The notes beneath the pieces are model-generated. The model was not told where the DNA came from, searched no databases, and saw nothing but the letters and a program-made list of their open reading frames with translations. A stretch of 64,000 bases of DNA from Conyzicola lurida (GTDB taxonomy: Bacteria > Actinomycetota > Actinomycetes > Actinomycetales > Microbacteriaceae). The DNA is taken from NCBI RefSeq assembly GCF_014204935.1, contig NZ_JACHMJ010000001.1, forward strand, positions 2,294,001 to 2,358,000. The letters are read 5' to 3'. The position numbers were made by a program, and so were the translations under genes. Positions 37,713-53,915 of this stretch are shown one piece after another (the stretch's first letter is position 1; the number at the start of each line of letters is the position of its first letter).

Positions 37713-38318
37713 TTACCTCTCGAGGCGGAGCACGTAGTCGCCGAGTTCGACGGCTGCGCCATCCCGGATCTGCACTCTTTCGCCGGGGACGACCTCGACG
37801 GGCGCGCCCTCGGTGACGACGTACACGCCGTTCGTGGAGTCGAGGTCGCTCACCCAGACCGCGTCGTCGTCGAGCTCGAGCAGCGCGTGCGTCTTCGACA
37901 CCGAGCGGGTCTCGTCGGCGAGTGCGACGAGCCCGGCGTCGGGCCAGCGGTCGGATGCCGCGGGGTTGCGTCCCAGGAGCAGGGTACCGGTGACCGGGAT
38001 CGCGTCGCCGGTCGGGGGTACCAGTCGCCAGGGCTGTGGCAACGTGACCGGGTTGGTCTCGGCGGCGGACGCTTCGACGGGCTCAGCGACCGGCTCGGGG
38101 ACCGGCTCGACGGCCGGCAGCACCGGCGCCGCCCCGATCACCGTCGGCACGAAGACCACGTCGTCGAGCGGGCGCTCCACGGGCGCCGTGACCGTCACCG
38201 GTTCCACGGTGATGCCCGGCGGCAGGTCGATGAACCCGGCCTCCTCCTCGTCGAGAGGCGAGGGCACCGGCGCCGCGGGGATCCCGGGCGGCGGCATCGC
38301 GATGAAGTCGTCGCTCAC
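37713..38318 (-). CDS. FHA-domain protein, end of PFNA-like operon
   Basis: 201 residues. N-terminal proline/acid-rich linker (1-95), including PEPVAEPVEASAAE encoded by a dispersed-repeat copy at 38072-38086, then a C-terminal FHA domain: LLLGRNPAASD, VSKTHALLELDDD, DLDSTNGVYVV. FHA domains bind phospho-threonine. GTG 38318 overlaps the transglutaminase-like gene stop as GTGA. Likely reads the phosphorylation state set by the kinase and phosphatase at 49-53 kb. Confidence 0.88.
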   Translation of the reverse strand: MSDDFIAMPPPGIPAAPVPSPLDEEEAGFIDLPPGITVEPVTVTAPVERPLDDVVFVPTVIGAAPVLPAVEPVPEPVAEPVEASAAETNPVTLPQPWRLVPPTGDAIPVTGTLLLGRNPAASDRWPDAGLVALADETRSVSKTHALLELDDDAVWVSDLDSTNGVYVVTEGAPVEVVPGERVQIRDGAAVELGDYVLRLER

Positions 38319-40639
38319 GTCGACCGCTTCCGTCGGCGGATGCGGTACCGGCTCGCGATGCGGCGCAGGCGCGTGGCCGAGCCGCGGGCGACCGCGACGG
38401 CGGCGAGGGCCTCGTTCCAGACCAGGTCGGTGCGTTCCGGCTCGACCTCGGCGCCGCCGAAGACCGCTTCGTCGGTCTGCGCGGCGAGCGCCGTGAGCCC
38501 GGTCGGCTGTCCGGCGGGCAGCTGCGCCTCGAGGCCGCGCGCCACCACGAGCCGGGTGCCGCGGCCGCCCACCGCGTAGCCGAGTTCGGCGTAGCGGTCG
38601 ACGAGCTCTTCCCAGGCCCCGGCCACGCGGTCGTGGACCGCGCCGTCGGTGCGGCGCTTGCGGGCTCGCCGTCCCTTGATCAGCGCGACGACGAGCAGAG
38701 GGATGAAGATGATCAGCGCCGGGATGAGCACGCTGTAGCCGACGACCCACACCCAGCCCGGGATCACGAACGCGTCGCCGTTGTCGTCCTCGTCGGTCTC
38801 GTCGAGTTCGACCGGCGTCAGCAGGTCGTCTTCCTCGTTGTCGGCACGCGGCGGCTGGCGCACCTGCGGCTGTGGTTCGCTCTGCGGCTTGGGGACCTGC
38901 GCCTGCGGGATGTCGGTCTCCTCGGGCGTCGGGTTGAACGCCACCCAGCCGACGTCGTCGAACGCGACCTCGACCCAGGCGGTGACGTCGTCGCCGGTGA
39001 CCGTGACAGCCCCGCCGTCTTCCGGGATTTCGGGAGCGAAGCCCATCACGACGCGGGCCGGGTAGCCGAAGCTGCGCGCCATCAGCGCGAACGCCGACGC
39101 GTACTGCTCTTGGTCGCCGATGAGCTGCACGCGCGTGAGCAGCTCGGTGACGCGGTCGGCACCGTGCCCGGCGCGTGACGGCTGCGAGTCGGACTCCCGG
39201 CCGTGGCTGAGGAATCCGTTCTCGGTGAGCGCCAGCTGGATCGCCTGCAGCTGGGCCATCGGGGTGGCCGCGTCGGCCGCGAACTCCTGGGCCTTGGACG
39301 TCACGATGTCGGGCGACCCGGTCACGGGCGGCAGCTCGACCGCGGCGACGCTGGTCTCGTCCAGGTCGGCCGGCGTGAGCACCTTCTGTTCCACGGCGTC
39401 GAGCTCGTACGAGTCGCCCGCGCTCAGCCCCGTGGTCAGCACGGCGGTGCCCGTCGAGCGGTTGTAGCGCACGCTGTCCGCTTCCGACACGGCGTCGCCG
39501 CCGGTGAACGCGAGGTCCGTCAGGTAACCGACGCTCGGCACCCACACGTCGTCGTAGGCGCCGATCGTGATGGTGACGTTGTCGCGTTCCTCGGGGGTGA
39601 TGAAGGTCTGCGCCGGGATCCGGCGGCCGACGAGCGCGAAGGAGCCCGACCCGTCGGTGGCGGTCTCGGGGCCGGTGACGGTCCACAGTTTGCCGGTGAA
39701 CGAGTCGAGCGTGGCGAGGCGGACGACATCGCCGGGCTTGAGCCCGCTGACGGTGAAGAGCTCGTCGTCGGTGACCTGTTTCGTGTAGTGCCGGAACCCG
39801 CTCAGCGGACTCGGGTACTGCAGCGGGTCGAACGGTGGCTCGATCTCCTCGCGCAGCACGAAGCGCTCGTCGTTGGCCGGCGCGAACCAGAAGCCCGCTC
39901 CCCCGCCGACGACCACGGCGCCCGCGACGATGGCCGCGGTGCCGGCCAGCTTGCGGTTGCGCAGGCGCTGCGCACCGCCCTGCGCGACCGAGGCCACGGT
40001 GGGGCGGCGCCAGCCCAGCCAGACGAGCGCGAGGATCGCGAAGACGACCCCGCGCAGCCCGGCCTGATACGGCTGGTCGGTGCCGATCAGGATGCTCGCG
40101 AGGTAGAGCGCGACCGGCCCGACGAGCGCGATGCCGAAGCGCCACGCGGTGCGGGGGCGGCCGGCGATCCAGCGGGTGGCGAGCGTGGTCGAGACCAGTG
40201 CGACGAGCCAGGTGGCGAGGTACGGCACGACGGCGATGTACTGCGGGGCGCCGATGGGCGTGCGCAGCGTGACGATGTCGGTCCAGCCGAAGACGCTGCC
40301 GACGGCGATGCTGGCGAGCGACTGCAGGGTCGGCAGCACACCGAAGACCGCCTGGCCCTGCACGGCGAAGGCCGAGCCGAAGACGAAGTAGGCGACGACG
40401 GCGACGAGCACGGTGACGAGTGCGCCGAGCCGGAACATCGACGAGAGGATGCCGGTGGCGGCACCCAGCACGAGGCCGCCGACCCCCGCGAGCAGGAACG
40501 AGTAGCCGCCGAACGACGGTTCGAAACCGACGACGCCGAGCGCGACCAGCACGAGCAGCACCGCAATGTCGGCCCAGGTGCGCGGCGTCGGGCGGCGGAT
40601 ACCGGTGCCGGCGGGTGCGGCCGACGTGGTGGCGCTCAC
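38315..40639 (-). CDS. Transglutaminase-fold membrane protein lacking catalytic residues (pseudoenzyme)
   Basis: 774 residues with TgpA topology: six or so membrane segments (20-260), an extracytoplasmic transglutaminase-like domain, a DNEEDD-rich acidic linker, a membrane segment near 650 and a cytoplasmic tail. Aligned on the shared MAR-x-x-G-x-PAR core, the catalytic Cys of the paralogue at 8057-10396 is replaced by Gln in GDQEQYASAF, and the catalytic His by Thr in DDVTAWVEVAF. I see no cysteine anywhere in the translation. It keeps the fold signature GYPARVVMGF and VGWVAFNPTP. GTG 40639 overlaps DUF58 stop as GTGA. It may be a structural or binding partner rather than an enzyme. Confidence 0.88.
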   Translation of the reverse strand: MSATTSAAPAGTGIRRPTPRTWADIAVLLVLVALGVVGFEPSFGGYSFLLAGVGGLVLGAATGILSSMFRLGALVTVLVAVVAYFVFGSAFAVQGQAVFGVLPTLQSLASIAVGSVFGWTDIVTLRTPIGAPQYIAVVPYLATWLVALVSTTLATRWIAGRPRTAWRFGIALVGPVALYLASILIGTDQPYQAGLRGVVFAILALVWLGWRRPTVASVAQGGAQRLRNRKLAGTAAIVAGAVVVGGGAGFWFAPANDERFVLREEIEPPFDPLQYPSPLSGFRHYTKQVTDDELFTVSGLKPGDVVRLATLDSFTGKLWTVTGPETATDGSGSFALVGRRIPAQTFITPEERDNVTITIGAYDDVWVPSVGYLTDLAFTGGDAVSEADSVRYNRSTGTAVLTTGLSAGDSYELDAVEQKVLTPADLDETSVAAVELPPVTGSPDIVTSKAQEFAADAATPMAQLQAIQLALTENGFLSHGRESDSQPSRAGHGADRVTELLTRVQLIGDQEQYASAFALMARSFGYPARVVMGFAPEIPEDGGAVTVTGDDVTAWVEVAFDDVGWVAFNPTPEETDIPQAQVPKPQSEPQPQVRQPPRADNEEDDLLTPVELDETDEDDNGDAFVIPGWVWVVGYSVLIPALIIFIPLLVVALIKGRRARKRRTDGAVHDRVAGAWEELVDRYAELGYAVGGRGTRLVVARGLEAQLPAGQPTGLTALAAQTDEAVFGGAEVEPERTDLVWNEALAAVAVARGSATRLRRIASRYRIRRRKRST

Positions 40640-41967
40640 GAGCTCACCCCGCGCACGAGTCGGTTGAGGTCGTCGAGGTCGCCGATCGTGATGACGGTGA
40701 GCCCGGCGACGGAGGATATCCTCGGCTGCGCGCCGAGTTCGACATGGAAGGCGACCTGGCTGGTGTCCTGGCCGAAGAGCGTCTCGACGCTGCGGTACTC
40801 GAGGGTGGTCATTTTCGAGCCGCCGATCATCATCACGACGCTCGGGGCCGGCAGGCGCTTGGTCAGCTCGCGGGCGAACTCGCGCACGGTCGGGTAGACC
40901 TTGCCGACGGGTTCGACCCGCGACGACGAGTCGAGCATCGAGGTCACCGACTGGGTGCGCCAGACGCCGCGCTCGCTGACGATGTTCATCTGCACGCCGT
41001 CGCGGATCACCTGGGCGGCGATCGACGCGGTCACCGAGATGGCCAGCTCGAACTCCTCCTCGGAGGCGTAGAGGTCTTCACGCGAGGTGTGGATCATCGT
41101 GAGCTGCGAGCGGCGCGTCTCGTTGAACTGGCGCACCATGAGCTGGCCGATGCGCGCGGACGTGCGCCAGTGCACGTAGCGCCTGTCGTCGCCCGGCACG
41201 TACGGGCGCAGCGCGTGGAACGCGATGTCGTTGTTGGTGATGGTCTTCGAGACCTGGCCCTCGAGGTCTCGCACGAGGCCCGCGGCCGTGGGCAGCAGCC
41301 GCACGGTGCGCGGGTGCACGAACAGGTCGACCGCGTCGGCCCACTTCAGCGAGCGGCGCAGGATGCCCAGCTGGTCGCCACGCACCGATTCGGCGGGCCC
41401 GGCGACGATCACGGCGCGCTTGTTGGTGGGCACGGCGAAGAGTTCCTCGTGCTCGTCCTTCGGCTTCATCGCCGGCAGCTGGAACTCGGCGATGCCCTTG
41501 CCGACCGGCAGTTCCATGCGCGTGCCCGACAGCGGCCGCGCGCCGACGTTGGTGACGAGCATGCGGCCCATCGCCCGGTCGCCGACGACGACGCGGCGCG
41601 GGTTGAGCTCGACGAAGACCCCGTACGACGCGCGCCCGAACAGGAACGCGGCACTGAGCACGACCGCCGCAAGGAGCACGGTGCCGAGATAGGTGAACTC
41701 CTGCCAACCGAACACGGCGCTCAGCACGAGCGAGACGACGGCGAACAGCAGCACGAGCCAGCCGGTGGGGGTGACGACGCCGACCACGGGGGCGACACGG
41801 GTCCAGACCTTCGACCAGAGCTTGGCCGCTGGCGGCCGGATGACGCGGCCGGCAGCACCCGCGACCGAGCGGGCTCCGCGGCCCACGCCGGCGGCGCGCG
41901 CGGTCGCCGAAGCGCGCACGTTCGCCGCGGCGCGCGGGCGCTTCGTCTTCTCGGTCGTCGTCGTCAC
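40636..41967 (-). CDS. DUF58 domain-containing membrane protein (PFNA-like cluster)
   Basis: 443 residues. A basic N-terminus (TEKTKRPRAAANVRAS) of about 60 residues, two membrane segments (68-110), then DUF58 with FHALRPYVPGDDRRYVHWRT near 255-275. Compared with the paralogue at 10389-11675 it has a longer basic cytoplasmic head. GTG 41967 lies 4 bases after the MoxR stop; overlap GTGA with the transglutaminase-like gene. Confidence 0.88.
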   Translation of the reverse strand: MTTTTEKTKRPRAAANVRASATARAAGVGRGARSVAGAAGRVIRPPAAKLWSKVWTRVAPVVGVVTPTGWLVLLFAVVSLVLSAVFGWQEFTYLGTVLLAAVVLSAAFLFGRASYGVFVELNPRRVVVGDRAMGRMLVTNVGARPLSGTRMELPVGKGIAEFQLPAMKPKDEHEELFAVPTNKRAVIVAGPAESVRGDQLGILRRSLKWADAVDLFVHPRTVRLLPTAAGLVRDLEGQVSKTITNNDIAFHALRPYVPGDDRRYVHWRTSARIGQLMVRQFNETRRSQLTMIHTSREDLYASEEEFELAISVTASIAAQVIRDGVQMNIVSERGVWRTQSVTSMLDSSSRVEPVGKVYPTVREFARELTKRLPAPSVVMMIGGSKMTTLEYRSVETLFGQDTSQVAFHVELGAQPRISSVAGLTVITIGDLDDLNRLVRGVSS

Positions 41968-41971
41968 GGGG

Positions 41972-42940
41972 TTACGCGGCGCGGTACGCGGGCGGCTCGA
42001 TGTCGACGAGGATGCGGCTCACGACGTCCTCGGCCTTGACCCCGGCGAACTCGCTCTCGGGGTCGAGGATGATGCGGTGAGCGAGCACGTTGACGGCGAG
42101 GTCGCGCACGTCGTCGGGGGTCGCGTAGGTGCGGCCCTGCGTGAGCGCCCAGGTCTTGATCGCCCGGGCGAGCGCCATGGCGCCGCGCATGCTGACCCCG
42201 AGGATCACGTCGCGGTGCGCGCGCGTGGCCTCGACGATGTCGTTGAGGTAGTTCATGACCGACTCGTCGACGAAGACCTCGGAGGCGAGCGCCGACATCG
42301 CGACGATCGACTCGGGCTTGATGATCGGCGAGACGAGCGACGCGCGGGCGCGGGTGCCGGAGTCCATCAGCAGCGACACGGCGATCTTGCTGTCGGGATA
42401 GCCGAGAGTGGTCTTGATCAGGAACCGGTCGAGCTGCGCCTCCGGCAGCTTGTAGGTTCCGGCCTGCTCCACCGGGTTCTGCGTGGCGATCACGAGGAAC
42501 GGGGCGCCGACGGAGTGGCCCTCGCCGTCGATCGTCACGACGCCCTCCTCCATGACCTCGAGCAACGCGCTCTGGGTTTTCGGGCTGGCGCGGTTGATCT
42601 CGTCCGCAAGCACGATGGAGGCGAAAATCGGCCCCTTGTGGAACTCGAAGCGGCCCTTGCCCTGGTCGAAGATCTGCACGCCGGTGACGTCGGAGGGCAG
42701 CAGGTCGGGGGTGAACTGGATGCGCGACGTCGTGCCGTCGAGCGTGTTGGCGAGGGCCTTGGCGAGCACCGTCTTGCCCGTGCCGGGGTAGTCCTCGAGC
42801 AGCACGTGGCCGTCGGAGACGAGCGCGGTCAGCACGAGCCGGATCACGTGGTCCTTGCCCATGATCGCCTTGTCGACGTTGGCGACGAGCTTCTGGAACG
42901 CGTCGGCGAACCAGGTCGCCTGTTCCTGGGTTACTGGCAC
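41972..42940 (-). CDS. MoxR-family AAA+ ATPase (PFNA-like cluster)
   Basis: 322 residues. Walker A PGTGKT around 52-57, RIQFTPDLLPSDVTGVQ, Walker B SIVLADEINRASPKTQ, sensor ATQNPVEQAGTYKLPEAQLDRF. Start GTG 42940 is chosen because GGAGA lies 7 bases upstream; the longer TTG 42964 start would include that site and nearly abut the previous stop. Together with DUF58 it is expected to act as a chaperone-like complex, possibly on the giant surface protein encoded just upstream. Confidence 0.9.
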   Translation of the reverse strand: MPVTQEQATWFADAFQKLVANVDKAIMGKDHVIRLVLTALVSDGHVLLEDYPGTGKTVLAKALANTLDGTTSRIQFTPDLLPSDVTGVQIFDQGKGRFEFHKGPIFASIVLADEINRASPKTQSALLEVMEEGVVTIDGEGHSVGAPFLVIATQNPVEQAGTYKLPEAQLDRFLIKTTLGYPDSKIAVSLLMDSGTRARASLVSPIIKPESIVAMSALASEVFVDESVMNYLNDIVEATRAHRDVILGVSMRGAMALARAIKTWALTQGRTYATPDDVRDLAVNVLAHRIILDPESEFAGVKAEDVVSRILVDIEPPAYRAA

Positions 42941-42957
42941 TTGGGTGTCTCCATTTC

Positions 42958-45900
42958 TTACCAACTCGTCGTGTTGGAGGTGGTTCCGTTGATGACGACC
43001 TTCTTGCCGCCGCCACGGATGTTGTAGCAGCCGAGGTCGCCCGAGAAGTCGCCGTTCGAGTCGAAGCGCAGCAAGGTCACCTTGTCGGAGCGGTACTTGC
43101 TCGGGTAGAACTCGCTGCCCTCGTGGTAGCAGTTGCCCACGAACTGGGCGTTCGGCTCGAAGTTACGCGCCTCGACGTGGTAGTGCTGCGAGCCGGGATA
43201 GCCGTAGTTGACCGCGGGGCCGCCCTCGGAGACGGTGATCTCGGGCTCGGCGGGCGGCGGCGGAGGGGGCGGCGGCTGGGTCACGGTCGTGGTGCCCGAC
43301 GACACCCCCGGCCCGTCGCCGCTGGCGTTGCGCGCGTACACGGTGAGGGAGCGGTCGCCGCCGTTGTCGTCGACCTCGATGCTGGCCGAGAGACCGGTCG
43401 TCGTTCCGCTCTGCCCGCTGTTGGTGCTCCACACGTACTCGAGACCGTCCCCCGCGGCATCCGGGGTCGCATTCGCCGGCGCCGTCCAGTTCCAGGTGAG
43501 GGTCATCGGCCCCTCTCCCCCGGCGGGCGTCGAGACGCTCTGCGGCGCGGTCGGGATCGGCTGGGTGAACACCGTCAGCACGTTCGAGGTGCCGGACGGC
43601 CCGCGCTTGCCGCCGTCGTTGCGGGCGCTCACGGTGATGGTGAACTCGCCGGCATTCTCGGCGAACGTGGCCGAGGTTCCCGTGGTCGAGCCGCTCTTGC
43701 CCGAGTTCGTGGTCCAGTCGTAGGTCGTGGTGCCGCCGGTACCGCCGACGGCGGGCCAGGTCGCGGTGATGTTCGCCGTCGCCCACTTGTCACCGGTGGT
43801 GAGGCTCGGGGTGACCTGCGCGGGTGTGCCGTACGGGGTCACCTGGTCGCTGTTCTGCGACCATGCTCCGGGGCCGTGCTCGTTGACCGCCCGCGCGGAG
43901 AACGTGTAGGGCGTGCCGTTGACGAGACCGGAGATCGTGCAGGCGGCACCCGCGACGCAGGTCGTCGGGACGGCCGCTGCCGGGGTCGTACGTACCTCGT
44001 AGGAGGTGATCGGCTTGCCGTTGGCGGCGGGCGCGATGAAGCGGAACGTGGCCGACTGGTCGCCGCCGACCGCGCTGTTGCCGTCCCTCGTGGGTTTTGC
44101 CACGGGGTCGGGCACGTCGCTCACCACGAGCGTCATGGTGCCGTTGACGTACCTGTCTTTGTCTTCGGTGGCGTCGCGCACCGTGTAGACGACTTCGATG
44201 ACGCCGCTCTTCAGTGCCGGGTTCGGTTGCACGGTCACGGTGGAGGCGGTGTGCGAGATCGTCGCCGGTTCTCCGGTGTTCTGTACGACGGCGTCGACGA
44301 TCACGAGCGGTTCGTTCGTCGTCTGGTACGGGTTCGAGTCGTTCGAGAGAACGTTCGCCTTCACGGCACCGTCGCCGCGCTGGGTCTCGAGCACGTCGGT
44401 CACCGCGACCGCGAGCGGCTTCGACGAGCCGACGACGGTCACGTTGATCTGTCCGGGCACCTCGAAGCGGTCCCAGCGCAGGGTGACGTTGAGCGTGTAG
44501 GTGGAGCCCTTCTTCGCGTTGCGCGGCGTGCTCATGGTCAGCTGCGATCCGCTCAGGCTCGCCGAGAGGCCGGCTGTCGCGCCCACGAGGTCGGAGTAGG
44601 TGACCTCCTGCAGGATCTGCGGGTTCGGGTGGCCGGTCGACGCCCTCAGGTCGATGACCGTGGTCTCGCCCAGCTCGACCTGCGGGCTCGGCGTCGTGAA
44701 CTCGGGCGGCGTATCGCGGAACTCGGGGTCGCCGACGATGATGTTGAGCCGCAGGTTGGCCGAGATGCCCTTGGGATCCTCGGCCGAGTCGCCGTCGAAC
44801 ACGCGGAAGTTGATCGCCGCGGGGCCGCGGTAGTCCGGCGGCGGGGTGAAGCGCAGGGTGTCTTGGTCGACATAGCTGGGGTCGCCGTTGCCCTGCACCG
44901 CGCTCACGGTCGACGAGTCGGGGATCCAGGCGTCACGGCCGGAGGGGACCACGACGATGTCGGAGAGGTTCCACTCCTTCGTCTCGTTCATGTTGACGTA
45001 CTGGATCGGCAGGGCAGGGTCGATGATCGGCGGATCGTCGAAGCTCTCCTTGACCGCGGCGGGAACGAGGATGAACGCCATCGCGCTCAGGTCGTCGGCC
45101 TCGTTGGTGACGCGGTAGGCGATGGCCTGGCGTGTGGCGCCGGGCGTGACCTGCACTGTGCCGTTGGTTTCGAGCAGCGCGCCGGCGCCGGCGTTCGGTC
45201 CCTCGAGGGTGACGACGAGGTCTTCGGTCGCTCCGGCCGGGTTGAAGGCGAAGCCGTCGAACAGGTCCACCGTCAACGAGTCCTTGCCGGCGATCTCCTT
45301 CGGCGTGATCGGCAGGTCCTTCGCCGAGGGCGGCACGAGCGGGGCCTCGGCACTGACCTGGACGAGCACGTAGCTCATCGACTTGCCGCCGCGGTCGTTG
45401 GTGAGTTCGTAGCGCAGCGAGAACGACTGCTCCTCGTCGGGCGCGGTGACGACGAGGTACTGGCCGCTGACGACCTTCGCCTCGACGCCGTCCGGAACGT
45501 CGACGAGCGTCTTCGAGACCTTGAGCACCGCGCCCTGCGGGTCGGAGTCGTTCGCGGTGAGGTCGACCTGCGCGATGCGGCCGGGCCGGATCGACACGGC
45601 GTCGGGGACGGCGCTCGGGTCGCTGAGTTCGGGCGGTGGCGGGATGACGCCGATCTTGATTTCCGCCTCGCCCGTTCCGCCGAAGGAGTCGTACACCTGG
45701 TAGCTGAAGGTGTCCGTTCCCGTCGCCGCGTCCGACGCCTCGTAGACGAAGTAGTCGTTGCCCGACTCGATGATCGTGCCGAGTGCCGGGTTGGTCGGGA
45801 ACGTGTTCAGCTGCACCGAGTCGCCGTCGGGGTCGATGCCGTTGAGCGGCAGGTCGACGCGGATGTTGCCGCCCGTGAGCACGCGCGCGACGAGCGGCTG

Positions 45901-48561
45901 CGGCACGGGGTCGCGGTTGCCCTCGGTGTCGAGGTCGGTGACGGTGAAGACCGCGGTGGCGGTCGCCGTCTCGTTGAAGGGGTCGAGCACGCGGTAGTCG
46001 ACGCGGTACTCGCCCGGTTCCTCGGGCGCCTGGAAGCGCATGACGTTGTCGCTGATGAAGGCGAGCCCGGCGGCCGGCGGAGTGACGAGCGTGGTGTCCA
46101 GCGTCATCGTGGTGTCGTCGGGGTGGAAGTCGTTGGCCAGCACGTCGAGCGCGGTGATGTCGCCGACCCGCACCTTGGCGGTGTCGTTCGCGGCCACGGG
46201 CGGCTGGTGTTTGGTGAGCGCGGGAACGGGCACGACCGTGACGCCCGCGGCGGCCGAGCTGACGCCGTCGGAGATCGTGTAGCTGAAGTCGACCTGCTCG
46301 GTGAGGGCCGCGGGGCTCGTGATGCGGACGAGGGTGCTGCCCAAGAGCTCGACGACGAGTCCCTTGGCGGTGAGCTCGGGTGCGACATCCACCGACTGGA
46401 CGGCCAGCACGCGGCCGAGCGGGCTCACGTCGTTGGCCAGCACCGAGACCGTCACGGGGGCGTCGCCGCGCAGGTAGGCGGTGTCTTTCACCGCGACCGG
46501 CGGGATCTGGTCGTCGGCGGGGCGGGCGCGCACGTCGACGCGCACGAGGCCCACGCTGTTGTTGCCGCCGGCGGCGAGCGTGTACTTCAGGTAGTAGATG
46601 CCGGCCTTGGTCGAGGTGAACGTGATGGTGCTCAGGTCGGTGTTGAACGAGGCGGTGGCGCCGTCGCCCGGCTCCTCGATCGCGACGAGGGAGAGCTGCG
46701 CGCCGGAGGGCGACAGGTCGTTGAGCAGCGGCTCGACGACGGCGGTCTCGCCGACGAACACGGTGGCGAAGTCGGGCGTTCCCACCGGGTTGAGGGTGCC
46801 GGTCGGTTCGACCTTGACGGTGAGGGTGCCGGCGGTCGACGAGCCGTGGCCGTCGCTGACCTGGAAGTTGATCTCCTTCTCGCCCAGTTCCGACGTCTGG
46901 TGGGTGAAGGTGACGAAGCCGTCGGGGGTGAACCGCACGAGGTCGGCGCTGGTCGCGGCCGCGCCGACGAGGAACAGGTCGTCGCCGTCGGGGTCGCGGA
47001 AGTTGGTGAGCACGTTGTAGTTGATCGTCTGGTTGGCCTCGACGCTCACCCCGCTGTCGCGGATCGAGACGGGTGCCTCGTTGCTCTCCTCGGGCACGAC
47101 GCGGGCGGAGACCCGGGCCTGGTCGAGACCGCCACGGCCGTCGTCGATCGTGTAGCCGAAGGCGAGGGTGCCGACGAAGCCGGGTTCCGGCGTGAACTGG
47201 AGGGCGCGGCCTCCGTCGATCGGGTCGAGGCGTCCGCTGGCCTCGTTGATCGACTCGTAGGCCGAGATGACGAGCACGTCGCCGTCGGGGTCGGTGTCGT
47301 TGTCGAGAAGGGGTAGCACGGTCGTGCGGCCGGGGCGGATGCCGTAGTCGTCGTCGACCGCGGTCGGCGGGCGGTTGTTCTCGGTGCGCTCGGCGATGGT
47401 GTCTTCGAACGACTGGATGGCGGACTTGTCGTCGCCCTCCTCCTCGCTCTCCTGCTCCTCGGGCGGGGTGATGTCGTCCCAGTTGTCGACGAGGCGCATG
47501 TTCTCTTCGAGCAGCCAGGTGTTGCCGTTGTCGAGGTCGTTGAGGGCGATCACCGAGCGGTTGACGCGGAACTCGAGGGTGCTGCCGGCGGTGGGGTTCG
47601 GGATCTCGGAGACCTGCGACTGCTGGCCGTCGCAGACCTCGAGGTAGACCTGCGCGCCCGCCCAGGCGCCGTGGGAGCAGCCGTCGAGGTACACGGGCGA
47701 CGAGACCTGCTCCGGTCCTGTCACCGCCTTCTCGATCTTCGTCGACGAGGTGGTCATCTCGCCGTCGTCCAGGTCGACCGCGACGAGGGAGTCGCCGGTG
47801 GCGAGGAGTGCCGAGTCGTTCTCGTCGCTCACCTGCTGCAGCTTGAGAACCGGGGTGTCGCCGAGGTCGTACACCGTGGCGTCCTCGGTCACCAGCTCGT
47901 TCGTCGACTGGTCGAAAACGACCGCGCGGTCGCCGACCGCGGAGAGCTGGAACTCGCCGACAGCGGGGAAGGCGGTCTCGACGGGGGCGTCGGCGAGGGT
48001 CTCCATGCGGTACAGGGTCTTCTCGTCGGGCGAGACGGCGATGACGGCGCCGTCGTGCGTCACGACCGCGTGGCCGCCCTCGCCGAGCTTCAGCAGCGGC
48101 GGGGTCGACACGAAGTTGAACTGCAGGTCGCCGACGGCGGTGATGACCCACAGGTCGCCCTCGGGCGACATGATGGCGATGTTCGTTCCGCCGTAGTGGA
48201 TCTCGGCGCCCTTCGGCACGTCGATGGCGGAGGTGACCTCGGTGGTCGCGGGGCTCACCGACTCGAGCCGGCCCGCGTCGGGGTTGTGCAGGAACAGCGT
48301 GTCGCCGTCCTGCAGCACGTCGAAGTTGGGAGATCCGGCGACGACGGAGCCGTTGAGCTCGTCGATCTGCCGGTTGAGGCGGCCGCCGAGCAGCTCTTCG
48401 CCGTTGGTGACCCAGACGTCGCGCGAGGTCAGCTGCACGTCGGAGATCGGGAAGCCCGGGTGCAGCGCCGCCACCGCGAGCAGCGAACCCGAGAGCAGGG
48501 CGATGACGAGGGCCGAAGCCGTCGTCCTGTGGCGTTTCAGCCACCCGCCCACAGCCCTCAA
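42958..48561 (-). CDS. Giant multi-domain Ig-like/fibronectin type III surface protein (FN3-like of PFNA cluster)
   Basis: 1867 residues. Basic N-terminus (KRHR), one membrane anchor at about 14-34, then a beta-rich, propeller-like region (about 40-370) and an acidic linker (EEQESEEEGDD). From about residue 405 some eleven Ig/cadherin-like repeats follow, several with the hallmark LxNDxDPxGD. Fn3-like repeats begin near 1484 (SYEVRTTP, VNGTPYTFSARAVN), then a poly-proline stretch near 1765 and a C-terminal 95-residue domain with two Cys. No sorting motif; N-terminal anchoring would place the repeats outside. TTG 48561 with GGGGGA 6 bases upstream. First gene of the unit with MoxR, DUF58 and transglutaminase-fold genes. 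Confidence 0.88.
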   Translation of the reverse strand: MRAVGGWLKRHRTTASALVIALLSGSLLAVAALHPGFPISDVQLTSRDVWVTNGEELLGGRLNRQIDELNGSVVAGSPNFDVLQDGDTLFLHNPDAGRLESVSPATTEVTSAIDVPKGAEIHYGGTNIAIMSPEGDLWVITAVGDLQFNFVSTPPLLKLGEGGHAVVTHDGAVIAVSPDEKTLYRMETLADAPVETAFPAVGEFQLSAVGDRAVVFDQSTNELVTEDATVYDLGDTPVLKLQQVSDENDSALLATGDSLVAVDLDDGEMTTSSTKIEKAVTGPEQVSSPVYLDGCSHGAWAGAQVYLEVCDGQQSQVSEIPNPTAGSTLEFRVNRSVIALNDLDNGNTWLLEENMRLVDNWDDITPPEEQESEEEGDDKSAIQSFEDTIAERTENNRPPTAVDDDYGIRPGRTTVLPLLDNDTDPDGDVLVISAYESINEASGRLDPIDGGRALQFTPEPGFVGTLAFGYTIDDGRGGLDQARVSARVVPEESNEAPVSIRDSGVSVEANQTINYNVLTNFRDPDGDDLFLVGAAATSADLVRFTPDGFVTFTHQTSELGEKEINFQVSDGHGSSTAGTLTVKVEPTGTLNPVGTPDFATVFVGETAVVEPLLNDLSPSGAQLSLVAIEEPGDGATASFNTDLSTITFTSTKAGIYYLKYTLAAGGNNSVGLVRVDVRARPADDQIPPVAVKDTAYLRGDAPVTVSVLANDVSPLGRVLAVQSVDVAPELTAKGLVVELLGSTLVRITSPAALTEQVDFSYTISDGVSSAAAGVTVVPVPALTKHQPPVAANDTAKVRVGDITALDVLANDFHPDDTTMTLDTTLVTPPAAGLAFISDNVMRFQAPEEPGEYRVDYRVLDPFNETATATAVFTVTDLDTEGNRDPVPQPLVARVLTGGNIRVDLPLNGIDPDGDSVQLNTFPTNPALGTIIESGNDYFVYEASDAATGTDTFSYQVYDSFGGTGEAEIKIGVIPPPPELSDPSAVPDAVSIRPGRIAQVDLTANDSDPQGAVLKVSKTLVDVPDGVEAKVVSGQYLVVTAPDEEQSFSLRYELTNDRGGKSMSYVLVQVSAEAPLVPPSAKDLPITPKEIAGKDSLTVDLFDGFAFNPAGATEDLVVTLEGPNAGAGALLETNGTVQVTPGATRQAIAYRVTNEADDLSAMAFILVPAAVKESFDDPPIIDPALPIQYVNMNETKEWNLSDIVVVPSGRDAWIPDSSTVSAVQGNGDPSYVDQDTLRFTPPPDYRGPAAINFRVFDGDSAEDPKGISANLRLNIIVGDPEFRDTPPEFTTPSPQVELGETTVIDLRASTGHPNPQILQEVTYSDLVGATAGLSASLSGSQLTMSTPRNAKKGSTYTLNVTLRWDRFEVPGQINVTVVGSSKPLAVAVTDVLETQRGDGAVKANVLSNDSNPYQTTNEPLVIVDAVVQNTGEPATISHTASTVTVQPNPALKSGVIEVVYTVRDATEDKDRYVNGTMTLVVSDVPDPVAKPTRDGNSAVGGDQSATFRFIAPAANGKPITSYEVRTTPAAAVPTTCVAGAACTISGLVNGTPYTFSARAVNEHGPGAWSQNSDQVTPYGTPAQVTPSLTTGDKWATANITATWPAVGGTGGTTTYDWTTNSGKSGSTTGTSATFAENAGEFTITVSARNDGGKRGPSGTSNVLTVFTQPIPTAPQSVSTPAGGEGPMTLTWNWTAPANATPDAAGDGLEYVWSTNSGQSGTTTGLSASIEVDDNGGDRSLTVYARNASGDGPGVSSGTTTVTQPPPPPPPPAEPEITVSEGGPAVNYGYPGSQHYHVEARNFEPNAQFVGNCYHEGSEFYPSKYRSDKVTLLRFDSNGDFSGDLGCYNIRGGGKKVVINGTTSNTTSW

Positions 48562-48625: not shown

Positions 48626-48681
48626 AACCTAACATGAGAGCCGTCTCATACCAGAGGCCGGAGATGGGCAGAACTACCCAT
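48626..48681 (-). promoter_or_regulatory. Promoter A: 18-bp near-palindrome plus extended -10 for the giant-protein operon
   Basis: Minus strand: ATGGGTAGTTCTGCCCAT (48681-48664), then exactly 32 bases, then TAGGTT (48631-48626) preceded by TG (extended -10, TGT-TAGGTT). No consensus -35 is visible, which suggests an activator. The motif overlaps the stop codon of the FHA-HTH gene. The same 18 bases and the same 32-base spacing occur at 53193-53248. Confidence 0.75.
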
Positions 48682-49408
48682 CACCGTCGGTCGCGGCGGC
48701 TTTGCTCGCGAGGTGCTCGGTGTCGTTGCGGTCGAGCAGGTAGAGGTCGTCCTGGCTCACGAGCCGCGTCGCGACGGCGTATTCGACAAGACGCAGGCGG
48801 CGGTTGGTGGCGAGGTTCCCCTTGCCGCCGCGGAGGCCCTGCACGCCGATCTTGTCGAGTTTGTCGCACACGTTGTCGAGCTTGCGGTTGAAGGTCGTCA
48901 TCGACCAGTGCAGGCGTTCGGCGGCGTCGGCGGAGGTCGGGATCTCGCCGCGGCCGGGGGACGACTGCCGCAGCACGTGTTCAGCGAGCGAGACGATGAG
49001 CAGCCGCTGCGTGCTGGTGAGCGGCACCGGTTCGATCGTCGTCGATCCCCCCGAGCTCGCGATCGCGGACGACGTGTTGTAGTAGTCGTCGCCCGAGTGG
49101 ATGGTGAACTCGTAGGTCGTGGAGCCGGCGCTGAACAGCACCTGCATCTGCGAGAAGACGATCGGCAGCTTGGCACCGGGTGCCAGCCAGGCCTGCACCT
49201 GTCCCGTGGCGTCCGTCACGGTCGCCGACAGCAGGTTGCCGACGTTCGCCAGCCACCACATGCCGAAATCCTCGTAGATGCGGAGGAAGCGGCGGTGCAG
49301 GTAGGGGTTGTCGTCGATGACGAGGTCGCTCTCGCGGCCGATGTGGAAGTCGTCGGGGTGCGCGACGTCGTACCACTCGCCGCAGAACTCGATTCGCAGG
49401 GGGTTCAT
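48674..49408 (-). CDS. FHA-like domain plus helix-turn-helix protein, probable cluster regulator
   Basis: 244 residues. N-terminal FHA-like domain (FHIGRESDLVIDDNPYLHRRFLRI, split: FHIGRES at 17-23, then the HRRF strand) and a C-terminal part (about 150-225) with a helix-turn-helix-like segment (SADAAERLHWSMTTFNRKL then DNVCDKLDKIGVQGLRGG). Such FHA-HTH proteins could couple phospho-peptide binding to transcription. It is the best local candidate to bind the 18-bp motif shared by both promoters of the locus. ATG 49408; weak ribosome site. A longer frame upstream reads repetitive DNA. Confidence 0.75.
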   Translation of the reverse strand: MNPLRIEFCGEWYDVAHPDDFHIGRESDLVIDDNPYLHRRFLRIYEDFGMWWLANVGNLLSATVTDATGQVQAWLAPGAKLPIVFSQMQVLFSAGSTTYEFTIHSGDDYYNTSSAIASSGGSTTIEPVPLTSTQRLLIVSLAEHVLRQSSPGRGEIPTSADAAERLHWSMTTFNRKLDNVCDKLDKIGVQGLRGGKGNLATNRRLRLVEYAVATRLVSQDDLYLLDRNDTEHLASKAAATDGDG

Positions 49409-49423
49409 ACGTTCACCACAGTG

Positions 49424-49472
49424 TTCGGGGAAGCAACGGTCTTCGGGCAGGCAACGGTCATTGGGGGAAGCA
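49424..49472. repeat. 18-bp tandem repeat between kinase and FHA-HTH genes
   Basis: Two and a half units: TTCGGGGAAGCAACGGTC (49424-49441), TTCGGGCAGGCAACGGTC (49442-49459), and a partial ATTGGGGGAAGCA to 49472. It covers the kinase stop and the short intergenic gap. Confidence 0.75.
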
Positions 49473-51086
49473 CTCCTCGAGGGCGTTGGCCGATGCCTTG
49501 GTGCCGCGCTTGACACTCACCTCGAGGCACACGGAGTCGCCGGGTGTGTAGTCCTTGATGACGATCACGCCGTCGTCGATCGCGCGCGACGCCTCGTCGG
49601 GCCGGTCGTAGCGTCGCCAGACGAACTCGTCGCCGTCGAGCGGGTCGGGGTTGATCACCGTGACCGTGAGGGTGGTGTCCCCGGGCACGACGCTGCCGAC
49701 CGTCGGCGTCGGGATCGTGTCGATCACGATGGCGTCGCCGCTGGCCCCGGGTGTCGGCCCGGCGGCGATGTCCTCGCCGTCTCCTCCGAGCAGGATGCCG
49801 GCCGTGACAGCCCCCGCGATGAGCACGGCCGCCGCGACGCCGCCCCAGACCAGCCACTTACCGCGACCGCGAGGAGGCGCTTCGGTGTCGGCGGCCGGTT
49901 CGACGGTCTCGGCCACGACGGGCGTGCGGCGCACGACCGTCGCCTCGTCCACCGGCTGCGCGGCGATGTTCTGCGGCGTGCGCACCACGGTCGAATCGCC
50001 GGCGGCCGCCGGTGCGTCGCTCCCTGGACGTGCGTCGAAAACGGGCGGCACGATCATCGGCGCGGCGGGCTGCGCGTCGATCGTCGCGACGGACCGGGCG
50101 CGCGTCGCGTCGGCGTCGTCCGCCTCGTCGCTGCGGTGCGGGGCCTCGATGAGCAGGTTCGGCACGTCGATCGCGGTGGGGCTGTAGCCGAGCTCGAGCT
50201 CCACGCGCTGCAGCGCCCGGGCGAAGTCGACGGCCGTGGCGAACCGGTCGTTGCGGTCGCTCGCCATGCCCTTCTGCAGCACGGCGACGAGCGACCGCGG
50301 AACGTCCTGGCGCGCCAACGGTGTGATCGCGCCGCGCTCGATGCGGCCGATGAGGTCGAGCGTGCCGTTCGATCGCCCGCGCACCTCGAAGGGCGTCTGC
50401 CCGGCGAGCACGGTGTAGATCGTGGCCGCGAGGGAGAACACGTCGCTGCGCACGTCGGGCTGCGGGTCGTCCTCGAACATCTCGGGCGGCGACCACGGCA
50501 CCGACATCCCGACGGAGGCGCTCTCGGTGCCCCCGGTTCCGGTCGCCGCGTCGGAGAGCGCGCTGGCGAGGGTGCCGGTGTGCACGGGCAGTTCGTCGTC
50601 GAGGGCGCTCGAGATGCCGAAGTCGGTTAGGGCGGGCCAGCCGTAGTCGTTGCCGAGCACGTTCGCGGGCTTGATGTCGCGGTGCAGGATTCCGGCCGAG
50701 TGCGCGGTCGCGACCGCGCTCGACAGGCGCACGCCGGTGCGCAGCGCGTCGGCGACCTGGAAGGTCTCCTGCTTGTAGCGCTCGGCGAGGCTCGGGCCCG
50801 AGCAGTACTCCATCACGAAGTACGGACGGTCGTCCGACGCGACGTCGGCGTGATAGATCGTGACGATGTACGGGTGCGCCGACAGCTGGGCCATCAGGTT
50901 GGCCTCGGCGACGAACGCGGCGCGGTTGGCACCGACGAGTTCCTCGGTCAGCAGCACCTTGACGGCGACGCGGCGGCGCGGCAGTTCCTGCTCGTAGAGG
51001 AAGACGTCAGAGAAGCCGCCCGATCCGAGCAGCCGCACAAAGGTGTATCCGGGCAGCTCGGGAGGCTGCGACGCGCTCCGTCTCAT
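49458..51086 (-). CDS. Membrane Ser/Thr protein kinase (PknB-like)
   Basis: 542 residues. Kinase domain 15-290: glycine loop GSGGFSDVFL, Lys43, catalytic loop HRDIKPAN (135-142), DFG (155-157), SPPEMF in place of the APE motif. A low-complexity linker with possible phospho-acceptor threonines (290-405) leads to a membrane segment (411-434) and an extracellular domain of about 105 residues with two Cys, not PASTA. ATG 51086 overlaps the FHA gene stop (TGATG). Signals from outside would be passed to the FHA proteins and reversed by the PP2C. Confidence 0.93.
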   Translation of the reverse strand: MRRSASQPPELPGYTFVRLLGSGGFSDVFLYEQELPRRRVAVKVLLTEELVGANRAAFVAEANLMAQLSAHPYIVTIYHADVASDDRPYFVMEYCSGPSLAERYKQETFQVADALRTGVRLSSAVATAHSAGILHRDIKPANVLGNDYGWPALTDFGISSALDDELPVHTGTLASALSDAATGTGGTESASVGMSVPWSPPEMFEDDPQPDVRSDVFSLAATIYTVLAGQTPFEVRGRSNGTLDLIGRIERGAITPLARQDVPRSLVAVLQKGMASDRNDRFATAVDFARALQRVELELGYSPTAIDVPNLLIEAPHRSDEADDADATRARSVATIDAQPAAPMIVPPVFDARPGSDAPAAAGDSTVVRTPQNIAAQPVDEATVVRRTPVVAETVEPAADTEAPPRGRGKWLVWGGVAAAVLIAGAVTAGILLGGDGEDIAAGPTPGASGDAIVIDTIPTPTVGSVVPGDTTLTVTVINPDPLDGDEFVWRRYDRPDEASRAIDDGVIVIKDYTPGDSVCLEVSVKRGTKASANALEECFPQ

Positions 51087-52261
51087 CAGTCCCCATCCGC
51101 TGTCGCGGTCTCTTCGACCGCGAATGTCACTCCGCCGCCCAGATCGACGATGGTTCCGACAATAACCGAGGTCGGCTCACCGGCGCGCAATTTCTGCGGT
51201 TCTTTCCCGGGCATCGCGATGGTCGTACCGTTGCGCGAGTGTAGGTCGGTGACCACGACGGTGCCGCCCTCGAGCGCGAACCGTACGTGGGTCCGGGAGA
51301 TGTCCTGGTCGGTGCCGCCGACGGTGAGCAGGCGCGGCATCTTGCCGCCGGGAACCTGGCTGACGCTCGGCGAGCGCCCGACCAGGATCGGCTGCGTGAG
51401 CGGTTCGCGCACGCCGGTCGAGAGCACGAGCGTCACGGCCGGTGCCTGAGGTGCCACGGGGGTGGCGGCGGGAGTGCCCGCGCCGCGCCGCCCGCGCAGC
51501 TTGGCGATGTCGGAGGTGAGAACGGTGTGCCCGTCGTGGTCGCCGGCGAGCCCGACGTCGTCGCTCTCGGGCTCGGGCGCTGCGGCGGGGACCGCGCGGA
51601 ACAGCGTGTCGCCGGTCAGCGTGTCGTCGAGCTCGACGACCGGCGCATCGGTCACGGTCGCCTCGACGTCGACCGCGAGCTCCTGCATGGGGTCGGGGTC
51701 GGGTGTCGTGACGGTTGTTACGACGGGGGTGGTCGGGGGTTCGGGCGCTTCGACGGGCTCAGCGACCGGGGCCGACGCAAGCACGGGCGCTTCCACGGGC
51801 TCAGCGACCTCAGCGCCCAGCGCCACCCCGCTCACCCACGCCGCACCGGCACCGAGCGGCAGCCCGAAGCCGAGCGCCGACGTCGCTCCCCCGACCACCA
51901 CGCGGGCGGAGGTGACGCCCTCGATGCCGCGCTCGATCCAGGTGGAGACTCCGGCGCCGCTGATCGTCTCCTCGCCGGAACGGTGGGCGACGACGACGGT
52001 CGCCTCCCCTCGCACGATCACGCGAACCGCGTCGCCGTCGCGGTCGAGCACGGCGAACGGCGGCGTCGCCGACAGGCCGCCGCTCGTGAGCAGATCGAGC
52101 ACGCGCTGCAGTCCGTCGGTGCCGCCGATGACCTCGTCGGCCGCGACGAGGAAGCTCTGGTCCGGCGAACCGCCGACGAGGAGCACGCGCGCGTCGGCGA
52201 CGACGGCGATCCACCCCCCGGCCGATGCCGGTTCGTAGGTCAGGCTCAACGCGGAAGTCAT
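51086..52261 (-). CDS. FHA-domain protein with long disordered linker
   Basis: 391 residues. N-terminal domain of about 150 residues of unknown fold (begins SLTYEPASAGGWIAVVAD), a Thr/Pro-rich linker, and a C-terminal FHA domain with ILVGRSPSVSQ, DISRTHVRFALEGG and DLHSRNGTTI (about 290-370). The linker holds two copies of AEPVEAP, each encoded by a dispersed-repeat copy (51748-51762 and 51790-51804), and the TDTL-type threonines around TLTGDTLF may be kinase targets. Overlaps PP2C stop as ATGA. Confidence 0.9.
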   Translation of the reverse strand: MTSALSLTYEPASAGGWIAVVADARVLLVGGSPDQSFLVAADEVIGGTDGLQRVLDLLTSGGLSATPPFAVLDRDGDAVRVIVRGEATVVVAHRSGEETISGAGVSTWIERGIEGVTSARVVVGGATSALGFGLPLGAGAAWVSGVALGAEVAEPVEAPVLASAPVAEPVEAPEPPTTPVVTTVTTPDPDPMQELAVDVEATVTDAPVVELDDTLTGDTLFRAVPAAAPEPESDDVGLAGDHDGHTVLTSDIAKLRGRRGAGTPAATPVAPQAPAVTLVLSTGVREPLTQPILVGRSPSVSQVPGGKMPRLLTVGGTDQDISRTHVRFALEGGTVVVTDLHSRNGTTIAMPGKEPQKLRAGEPTSVIVGTIVDLGGGVTFAVEETATADGD

Positions 52262-53145
52262 ACTCGCGGTCTCGTTTCTTCCAGCTGGTTGGCCATGGAC
52301 GACCGGTCGACGGTGTCCTCGCCGATGGGCGCCGGGTCTGGTCCGATCACGTCCGATTCCACCACAACCACCGTCACGTTGTCAGATCCGCCGGCCGCGA
52401 CCGCGGCGTTCACCAGCCGTTCGGCGAGCGTGATCGGCAGTCCGTCCGACTCGCGCAGCTCCTGGGCGTTGTGGAAAACGACGATGCGCGCGATCTCGTC
52501 GTCGCCGAGCTCCTTCGTGAGTCCGTCGGAGCAGAGCAGGAAGGTCTGGTGCCCCTTCGCCGGCAGCAGCCAGACGTCGGCCTCGACCTCGTCGTCGGCT
52601 CCGAGGGCGCGCGTGACGATGTTGCGGTCGGGGTGGCGCTCGGCCTCGCGCTTGGTGATGTGACCGAGGTCGACGAGTTCCTGCACGGCGGAGTGGTCGA
52701 CGCTCATCTGCGAGAGCGACCGGCCGTCCCAGCTGTAGGTGCGGGAGTCGCCGATGTTGAACGCCATCCAGTGGTAGTTGTCCTCGGCGCCGACGTCGAC
52801 GAAGGCGAGTCCGGTGAGGGTCGTGCCACTGATCGCGCCGAAGTCGGCCTCCGCGGTGAGGTCGAGCACGGCGTCGTTGGCGGCCCGGATCGTGTCGAGC
52901 ACGCGCTGCGGTGCCGCGGGCACGTCGGTCGGGAACGCAGCACCGAACGCGGCGACCGCCGCCTGGCTGGCCTTGTCGCCGAAGGAGTGTCCGCCCATGC
53001 CGTCGGCCACGACGAACATCGGTACCGAGGCGAGGTAGCTGTCCTCGTTGAGCTTGCGCACCGCCCCACGGTCGGAGTGCGCGGTGAACCGGAACTGCAC
53101 GGTGACATCGGCCAGCTCCACGTCACGCCGTACGTCGATAGACAT
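52258..53145 (-). CDS. PP2C-family Ser/Thr protein phosphatase (PstP/PrpC-like)
   Basis: 295 residues. Metal-binding motifs: RKLNEDSYL, VVADGMGGHSFGDKAS, GDSRTYSWDG, LLCSDGLTKEL and GGSDNVTVVVV. The catalytic domain has no membrane segment, so it is cytoplasmic. ATG 53145 preceded by GGTGGGA; the upstream extension to 53448 crosses the promoter and is rejected. First gene of the PP2C-FHA-kinase-FHA/HTH unit driven from promoter B. Confidence 0.93.
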   Translation of the reverse strand: MSIDVRRDVELADVTVQFRFTAHSDRGAVRKLNEDSYLASVPMFVVADGMGGHSFGDKASQAAVAAFGAAFPTDVPAAPQRVLDTIRAANDAVLDLTAEADFGAISGTTLTGLAFVDVGAEDNYHWMAFNIGDSRTYSWDGRSLSQMSVDHSAVQELVDLGHITKREAERHPDRNIVTRALGADDEVEADVWLLPAKGHQTFLLCSDGLTKELGDDEIARIVVFHNAQELRESDGLPITLAERLVNAAVAAGGSDNVTVVVVESDVIGPDPAPIGEDTVDRSSMANQLEETRPRV

Positions 53146-53192
53146 TCCCACCCAGCTTTCGCAGCCCATCCGCGCCGAGCGGCTTGCACCCC

Positions 53193-53248
53193 ACGCTAGC
53201 AAGGGCGCACCCGGGGGCACGCCACCGGGCATGGGCAGAACTACCCAT
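53193..53248 (-). promoter_or_regulatory. Promoter B: 18-bp near-palindrome plus extended -10 for the PP2C-kinase operon
   Basis: Minus strand: ATGGGTAGTTCTGCCCAT (53248-53231), exactly 32 bases, then TAGCGT (53198-53193) with TG extension (TGC-TAGCGT). Identical in motif and spacing to promoter A; CCGG also occurs at the same offset (bases 3-6) after the motif in both. Predicted start near 53186, giving a 5' UTR of about 40 bases. Confidence 0.75.
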
Positions 53249-53267: not shown

Positions 53268-53915
53268 CTAGGCCGAGACGGAAACCTCGCCGAGACGCGT
53301 GATCACGAGGGAGCTCCCCCGCGGGCCGGCCACCCGGTCTGCCACGAAAGCGAGCCGGTCGGCCACCGCCTCGCGTTCGTCGCGCTCTTTCACCGAGTAC
53401 ACATTGCGCCACACTTTGCCCGCCCAGAGGATCGCCGCGATGGTCCACGACGTGTCGGGTTCGCCGAGCTCGTCGGCAGAACCGAGAACCACAGAATCGA
53501 GAGACCCCCGGATGCCGCGGAGCGCCGTCACTCCGTCGGGCAGCAGCGCCGCCGACGGTTTGGTCTCGGCGACCACGAACCCGAGAGCGACCAGCCGCGC
53601 GACCACCGGCGCGGAGGTGCCGAGGTTGCCGAGCGCCCAGGTGATGCCGCGCGGCTTGCGCTGCGCGGCGAGCACCGCGACGGCCTCGGGCGCGACGGTG
53701 GAGCCGGCCTCGACCACGAGGGTCTCGGGCTTTCCGCGGCGTGCGGTCGCGACATCCACCGTCTCTGAATCGAGCAGTTCGACCAGGGTCGCGGCGGCGA
53801 GGGCCTGCGACTCGGAGCCGTTGACCTTGCCGTTGCGCAGCAGTTCGCCGCCGACGGGCTCGTAGTGCAGCACCAGGTAGAGCTGCTCGGCGAGCGAGAG
53901 GGGGCTAGTGGGCAT
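53268..53915 (-). CDS. GPP34 (GOLPH3-like) family protein
   Basis: 215 residues. SLAEQLYLVLHYEPVGGELLRN at the N-terminus (split here: SLAEQLYLVLHY) and the ALAAATLVELLDSETVDV segment resemble the GPP34/GOLPH3 fold, found as small cytosolic proteins in actinobacteria and proposed to bind phosphoinositide-like lipids. ATG 53915 overlaps the terC-family gene stop by 11 bases, so it is the second gene of that operon. Function in bacteria is not established. Confidence 0.7.
   Translation of the reverse strand: MPTSPLSLAEQLYLVLHYEPVGGELLRNGKVNGSESQALAAATLVELLDSETVDVATARRGKPETLVVEAGSTVAPEAVAVLAAQRKPRGITWALGNLGTSAPVVARLVALGFVVAETKPSAALLPDGVTALRGIRGSLDSVVLGSADELGEPDTSWTIAAILWAGKVWRNVYSVKERDEREAVADRLAFVADRVAGPRGSSLVITRLGEVSVSA

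Follow-up and report, generated by a model that had tools for sequence, protein, structure and literature searches.

In Bifidobacterium, the PFNA operon comprises the genes pkb2-fn3-aaa-duf58-tgm, joined in some species by prpC and fha, and a second transcription start lies upstream of the PP2C gene prpC (excerpts of PMC8430577). EspM of mycobacteria, which combines an FHA domain with a helix-turn-helix (HTH) domain, regulates the ESX-1 system and represses whiB6 (excerpts of PMC7002343 and PMC11005418). The tra box of TraR is a dyad of 18 bp, which in class II position lies at about -45 and overlaps the -35 element (excerpts of PMC3907764). Here, we describe a locus of Conyzicola lurida (family Microbacteriaceae), situated in a stretch of 64,000 nucleotides (the window: contig NZ_JACHMJ010000001.1, positions 2,294,001 to 2,358,000), which partly resembles each of these systems. 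An 18-bp palindrome, ATGGGTAGTTCTGCCCAT (the box), stands in front of two operons, and a gene named reg, situated between the two copies, codes for a protein with predicted FHA and HTH domains. We propose, with a probability of roughly 0.75, that the box is the operator of reg and that reg is an autoregulated activator, which reads the local Ser/Thr kinase/phosphatase pair.

With the PFNA operon, as far as the excerpts of PMC8430577 describe it, the window shares genes for a kinase, an Fn3 surface protein, MoxR, DUF58, transglutaminase, PP2C and FHA proteins. The order from the kinase to tgm is kept; reg is inserted after the kinase, and the PP2C and FHA genes come first instead of last. These excerpts name neither an FHA-HTH regulator nor a link to type VII secretion, and the word 'promoter' is absent from the text. 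Like EspM, reg has an N-terminal FHA and a C-terminal HTH domain, the latter two being known for reg from predicted models; EspM regulates type VII secretion, and boxes precede operons with WXG100 and EssC-like genes. EspM consists of 363 amino acids (aa) and reg of 244, and the EspM model NF052403 is not matched by reg, which has no NCBIfam match up to an expectation value (E) of 1. Unlike EspM as portrayed in the excerpts, reg lies within a kinase/PP2C operon, and the palindromic box occurs at several operons. The box resembles the class II sites of TraR and LuxR, as excerpted, in being an 18-bp dyad and in its place near -45 overlapping the -35 element (116 of 165 sites). The highest-probability structural matches of the reg HTH, at weak E values, are GerE/LuxR-type domains; Pfam reports no GerE match. 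In contrast to these regulators, which carry an acyl-homoserine-lactone domain, the N-terminal half of reg has an FHA fold; a further difference is a promoter subclass that is shifted by one helical turn and has a TG-extended -10. The three precedents are each similar in part; reg fails both the EspM model and the GerE sequence test. A type VII locus elsewhere in the same genome is similar to EssC-type loci, since it contains a WXG100 gene and an FtsK/SpoIIIE ATPase with an FHA domain; this EssC-like ATPase scores below the curated EssC cut-off (535.7 versus 778.4 bits; E 2.4e-160), which is passed in 5 of 289 family genomes. In the open-access literature, no paper was found for the sequence of the box motif, nor for the combination of WXG100, FHA domain, PP2C and promoter.

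The box and the geometry of its promoters

In the window, ATGGGTAGTTCTGCCCAT occurs in two exact copies, both on the minus strand (48681-48664 and 53248-53231). Allowing up to 3 mismatches revealed no third copy there, nor did any of 100 shuffles match. In the whole genome (G000, 3.64 Mb), these are the only exact copies, the next-nearest match having 2 mismatches. Exactly 32 bases separate each box from a -10 hexamer (TAGCGT and TAGGTT), which is preceded by TG at the extended position. An initial annotation, made from the letters of the window, had described these copies, their spacing and the gene content of the two units (giant Ig/Fn3-MoxR-DUF58-transglutaminase on one side, PP2C-FHA-kinase-FHA/HTH on the other) correctly. 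It had also reported CCGG at the same offset in both promoters; this third shared element is a coincidence, as only 2-3 of 148 family sites have CCGG at those offsets. Both copies have the same 18 bases; flanks and spacers differ between them. The stop codon TAG of reg (48674-48676) falls within box 1, so that the putative operator overlaps the end of the coding region.

A search of 299 family genomes with the 16-mer core (up to 1 mismatch) gave 28 sites in 21 genomes, compared with 6 matches of the reversed control; at 19 of the 28 sites, both the A and the T that flank the query are present. The palindromic consensus of the family is ATGGGNAGNNCTNCCCAT. It occurs exactly in 80 of the 299 genomes (the reversed control matched none), and the motif spans 30 of the 85 genera of the family sample. 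For a closer comparison, up to 20 kb were fetched around 115 reg matches in 111 family genomes. At up to 1 mismatch, these loci contain 81 matches of ATGGGNAGNNCTNCCCAT, versus 0-7 for each of 20 shuffled palindromes. The gene following reg is the giant gene in 80 of these loci; in 20, an EssC-like gene is close by instead, and 15 have neither. We regard it as near certain that the box is a real element.

The initial annotation had suggested looking for the motif at orthologous promoters. With up to 2 mismatches, it is found there in 27 of 79 PP2C clusters (24 with a -10 at 21-24 or 31-34 bases) and in 32 of 80 giant-gene clusters (31 with such a -10). A control with 30 shuffles had given means of 0.8-1.0 at up to 2 mismatches, single shuffles reaching up to 17 matches. 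These high-scoring shuffles were taken as look-alikes of the motif; therefore, the control was repeated with 40 palindromic shuffles, none of which agreed with the motif at 9 or more letters in any register. Here, the means were about 0.2, and the highest counts were 2 for PP2C and 7 for the giant gene. The box is missing from the majority of orthologous promoters, yet it is present far above chance.

The geometry was deduced from 165 distinct sites (up to 1 mismatch; 330 strands) in loci that had been fetched because of reg or the box. Hexamers of the form TANNNT start 22 bases from the box in 61 cases, 23 bases in 56, 32 bases in 15 and 33 bases in 5; the distances 21 and 24 occur 6 and 5 times, and all others between 0 and 53 only 0-2 times, the background being about 0.5 per position. 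Hence, the 32/33 class, to which both window promoters belong, lies one helical turn beyond the 22/23 class and is a minority variant (20 versus 117 sites). The two classes also differ in the extended -10, as TG is present in 20/20 promoters of the shifted class and in 28/117 of the other. If each of the 165 sites is assigned once, 116 fall at 22/23, 20 at 32/33, and 12 at 21, 24, 28 or 34; after thinning of similar contexts (128 of 168 sites kept), 43, 38, 14 and 5 sites remain at 22, 23, 32 and 33. A strict 32-base rule, as expected by the initial annotation for the relatives, is consequently rejected; what survives of it is the minority class.

Assuming that the -10 occupies positions -12 to -7, the centre of the box is at about -43.5/-44.5 (22/23 class) or -53.5/-54.5 (32/33 class) from the predicted start. 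A -35 element at 17/18 spacing would, in the 22/23 class, begin with the final T of the box. Four of the six bases of TTGACA are matched in 42 of 148 promoters, versus about 20 expected from shuffled spacers; none of the 148 has 5 or 6 matches. The shifted class is restricted to PP2C and giant-gene promoters (20/20), and all type VII promoters belong to the 22/23 class (56/56).

The genes downstream of the box

For the 148 sites with a -10, downstream genes were assigned by phmmer (E ≤ 1e-3) among candidate open reading frames starting within 450 bases. The box precedes the giant gene in 46 cases, the PP2C gene in 23, type VII genes in 56 and a zinc-ribbon gene in 1; the remaining 22 are without assignment. 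The 56 type VII genes are WXG100 genes (25 + 14), a 438-aa neighbour (12), a GFYGAD-type protein (4) and an RDD-FHA protein (1). In C. lurida itself, three further boxes (1-2 mismatches) lie outside the window, within 10 kb of one another, at C1:3183394, 3189163 and 3192685, with -10s at 23, 23 and 22 bases. Downstream of them are the genes of an RDD-FHA protein and the EssC-like ATPase, a 438-aa/membrane gene set, and a WXG100 gene. The type VII secretion-like locus carrying these boxes extends over G000:C1:3183394-3193067 (locus L208). A fourth box at C1:3458013 (1 mismatch, distance 22) precedes a small zinc-ribbon gene (L225, 5674-6031; box spacing 22), which may be a further member of the regulon. 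Two other palindromes of this genome (134571 and 1238919, 2 mismatches) lack a correctly spaced -10, and we regard them as chance matches.

The features of the window locus are compiled in Table 1. On the minus strand, the genes are arranged in the order PP2C, FHA protein, Ser/Thr kinase, reg, giant protein, MoxR, DUF58, transglutaminase. A gene for a GPP34 (Golgi phosphoprotein 3-like) protein (53268-53996) precedes the PP2C operon; among the first 60 reg loci compared by tblastn, it was detected only in the window and in L065. In L104 and L105, MoxR, DUF58, transglutaminase, FHA and reg genes are present, and no kinase was detected by tblastn with the window kinase.

Table 1. Features of the reg locus, with positions given in window numbering
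Feature	Position	Strand	Remark
Regulator box 2 (ATGGGTAGTTCTGCCCAT)	53231..53248	-	upstream of PP2C operon; seen at orthologous PP2C promoters
Predicted -10 TAGCGT of PP2C operon	53193..53198	-	TG-extended, 32 bases past box
PP2C-type Ser/Thr phosphatase (Stp1-like)	52258..53145	-	NF033484, E 3e-58, under that model's cut-off
FHA-domain protein	51086..52261	-	PF00498
Ser/Thr protein kinase, PknB-like catalytic domain	49458..51086	-	profile matches
reg, FHA + C-terminal HTH, candidate regulator	48674..49408	-	predicted fold; co-occurrence with box
Regulator box 1 (ATGGGTAGTTCTGCCCAT)	48664..48681	-	upstream of giant gene; seen at orthologous promoters
Predicted -10 TAGGTT of giant-gene operon	48626..48631	-	TG-extended, 32 bases past box
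Giant surface protein, tandem Big_9/cadherin-like repeats + one Fn3	42958..48561	-	start codon uncertain
MoxR-type AAA ATPase	41972..42964	-	AAA_3, AAA_lid_2
DUF58 protein	40636..41967	-	
Transglutaminase-fold protein	38315..40639	-	PF01841

reg as the candidate reader of the box

Matches to reg were found in 113 of the 299 family genomes at the default cut-off, of which 111 were counted after two matches at E 5e-4 (G052, G150) had been dropped. Within the family, 79 genomes contain both box and reg, 1 the box only, 32 reg only and 187 neither (Fisher p=1e-44); in other families of the order, the corresponding numbers are 53, 1, 31 and 145 (p=8e-29), where counts refer to genomes, not to independent events, so that the p-values overstate independence. 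In the latter search, the reversed control matched 2 of 248 genomes. Nine weak reg matches outside the family (E 5e-17 to 5e-4; G318, G502 and seven f16 genomes), none of which is accompanied by a box, were dropped. The two box-only genomes, G225 and G438, gave no reg match up to E 10 in a search run without a positive control; their boxes are not accompanied by a suitably spaced -10 and were likewise counted as chance. An EssC-like match (E ≤ 1e-100) is present in 170 of 289 genomes, a sample slightly different from the 299 genomes of the box search; 14 weaker matches, none of them box-positive, were dropped. Among the EssC-like genomes, the box occurs in 78 of 104 with reg and in 0 of 66 without reg, so that the box goes with reg and not with the secretion system as such.

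Of the five other genomes sampled from the genus, four (G037, G111, G168, G219) contain neither a reg match nor an exact box, indicating that the system is patchily distributed. In G009, two reg genes lie about 4-5 kb apart (L116, L162), with 67% and 59% identity to the window reg. A sample of the phylum gave reg matches in 14 genomes besides G000, several of them within the same family or order.

The protein was modeled in full length and as separate C-terminal domain. Its N-terminal half is predicted to adopt an FHA fold, with the FHA-1 domain of Rv1747 as best match to the predicted model in the PDB (E 6.8e-6). The C-terminal domain is modeled as an HTH with a predicted local distance difference test score (pLDDT) of 87.5 and a predicted TM-score (pTM) of 0.80. 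In Foldseek, its highest-probability matches are VraR, spr1814, LiaR and GerE, at probabilities of 0.97-0.99 and with weak E values of 0.35-0.62; target TM-scores are 0.71-0.81 for the GerE, LiaR and VraR domains. When the PDB was searched with the sequence of the HTH, no match was better than E 0.7. The segment FNRKLDNVC, which is invariant or nearly so across 49 reg orthologs, is probably the recognition helix. Taken together with the co-occurrence, these models make reg the likely reader of the box.

The box, its spacing, the downstream genes and the co-occurrence with reg can be read directly from the genomes, and binding, activation and phospho-control by reg are inferred. Most likely, a reg dimer would bind the 18-bp box through its LuxR/GerE-like C-terminal domain. 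At the usual site, centred at about -43.5/-44.5 in class II position, with the last T of the box starting a weak -35, reg would activate transcription. At some PP2C and giant-gene promoters, including both of the window, the site would lie one helical turn upstream (about -53.5), and the TG-extended -10 would compensate for the missing -35. Because reg is itself part of a boxed operon, it probably switches on its own PP2C-FHA-kinase-reg operon, which amounts to positive autoregulation; it would also drive the giant Ig/Fn3-MoxR-DUF58-transglutaminase operon, the type VII locus (RDD-FHA/EssC-like, WXG100) and the zinc-ribbon gene. The kinase/PP2C pair probably sets the activity of reg via docking of phospho-threonine on its FHA domain, as suggested by the structure of the operon and by what FHA domains do. 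As length, symmetry and place of the box equal those of the tra box and the HTH model is LuxR-like, an activating reg dimer beside sigma is the simplest reading. The initial annotation had postulated a dedicated regulator, which would probably activate and would join kinase and surface genes in a single regulon. This view is supported in a modified form: type VII genes have to be added, and reg is the candidate, its binding and the sign of its effect being predicted from sequence.

Several observations weigh against this proposal. At up to 2 mismatches, 52 of 79 orthologous PP2C promoters and 48 of 80 giant-gene promoters are without box; the exact box is missing in 32 of 111 reg-positive family genomes and in 31 of 84 of the other families; and a -10 at the distances tested is lacking at 17 of 165 sites. 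Beyond the order, 6 of 8 reg genomes tested (G620, E 8e-4, was left out) have no site at up to 1 mismatch. G643 has a single site about 45 bp upstream of reg, with no -10 at 22/23 (TACGGT at 29), and the single site of G737 lies 3.7 kb upstream of reg, its -10 at distance 23 pointing away from the gene; both neighbourhoods are suggestive only. No Pfam family (E ≤ 10) and no NCBIfam family (E ≤ 1) is matched by reg, the full-length model has a pTM of 0.51 (pLDDT 79.5), and the lowest Foldseek E values of the HTH (0.22-0.28) belong to LysR-type and MntR domains, at lower probability. Finally, co-occurrence cannot tell reg from the neighbouring kinase and PP2C genes, and a site overlapping the -35 could also be that of a repressor.

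Three alternatives have to be considered. As a repressor, reg would block sigma at the -35 until freed by binding of a phospho-peptide. This would suit the 22/23 class, where the box abuts the -35 position, and the nearest functional precedent, the FHA-HTH protein EspM, which represses whiB6 according to the excerpts of PMC7002343 and PMC11005418. Moreover, -35-like matches are not absent, given the excess of 4-of-6 matches over the shuffled spacers. On the other hand, a -35 with 5 or 6 matches is found in no promoter, and a spacing fixed to 1-2 bases, an exact one-turn shift and the TG extension in every shifted promoter are expected of an activator touching RNA polymerase; repressor sites are usually tolerant of position. 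In particular, the one-turn shift combined with an extended -10 fits an activator better, and we consider repression unlikely. Somewhat less probable still is that the box is recognized by a different DNA-binding protein inherited along with the cluster, and that reg acts as adaptor or target. Such a role would agree with the fact that reg is inseparable from its syntenic neighbours by co-occurrence and that its HTH escapes recognition by sequence. However, Pfam gave no HTH family in the other cluster proteins of the window that were scanned, whereas reg is modeled as HTH; the association of reg and box also holds in other families, and a regulator merely accompanying the type VII system is excluded by the 0/66 reg-negative genomes. 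The identity of the two window copies across 18 bases could, in principle, stem from chance or from recent duplication of a promoter fragment without wider meaning. This explanation, whose probability we regard as negligible, is refuted by conservation: spacers and flanks of the copies differ, and the motif, in contrast to shuffled palindromes, recurs in 30 of 85 family genera at fixed spacing. An activating reg thus remains the preferred explanation.

Implications

To our knowledge, it is poorly understood when PFNA-like surface clusters and the type VII systems of non-mycobacterial actinobacteria are switched on. The box, the candidate regulator gene and the fixed geometry place a surface cluster and a type VII system under one predicted circuit, and from box and geometry its predicted members can be looked up in every relative whose genome has been sequenced. 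We would give even odds to a more general version, in which one-component switches of this kind are widespread in actinobacteria: the FHA domain would read the phosphorylation state that the kinase and PP2C of the same operon establish, and a LuxR-like HTH on the 18-bp box would turn on type VII secretion together with the operon of the switch and a PFNA-type operon for a giant surface protein. If the proposal is true, Ser/Thr kinase signalling would reach promoters directly via an FHA-HTH protein, and reg would represent a family of switches for which neither Pfam nor NCBIfam holds a model. Such a switch would be the equivalent, under phosphothreonine control, of quorum-type activators; in its second class of promoters, an extended -10 would make up for a shift of exactly one helical turn. 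This natural one-turn shift offers a ready-made experiment on the position of activators and on extended -10 promoters.

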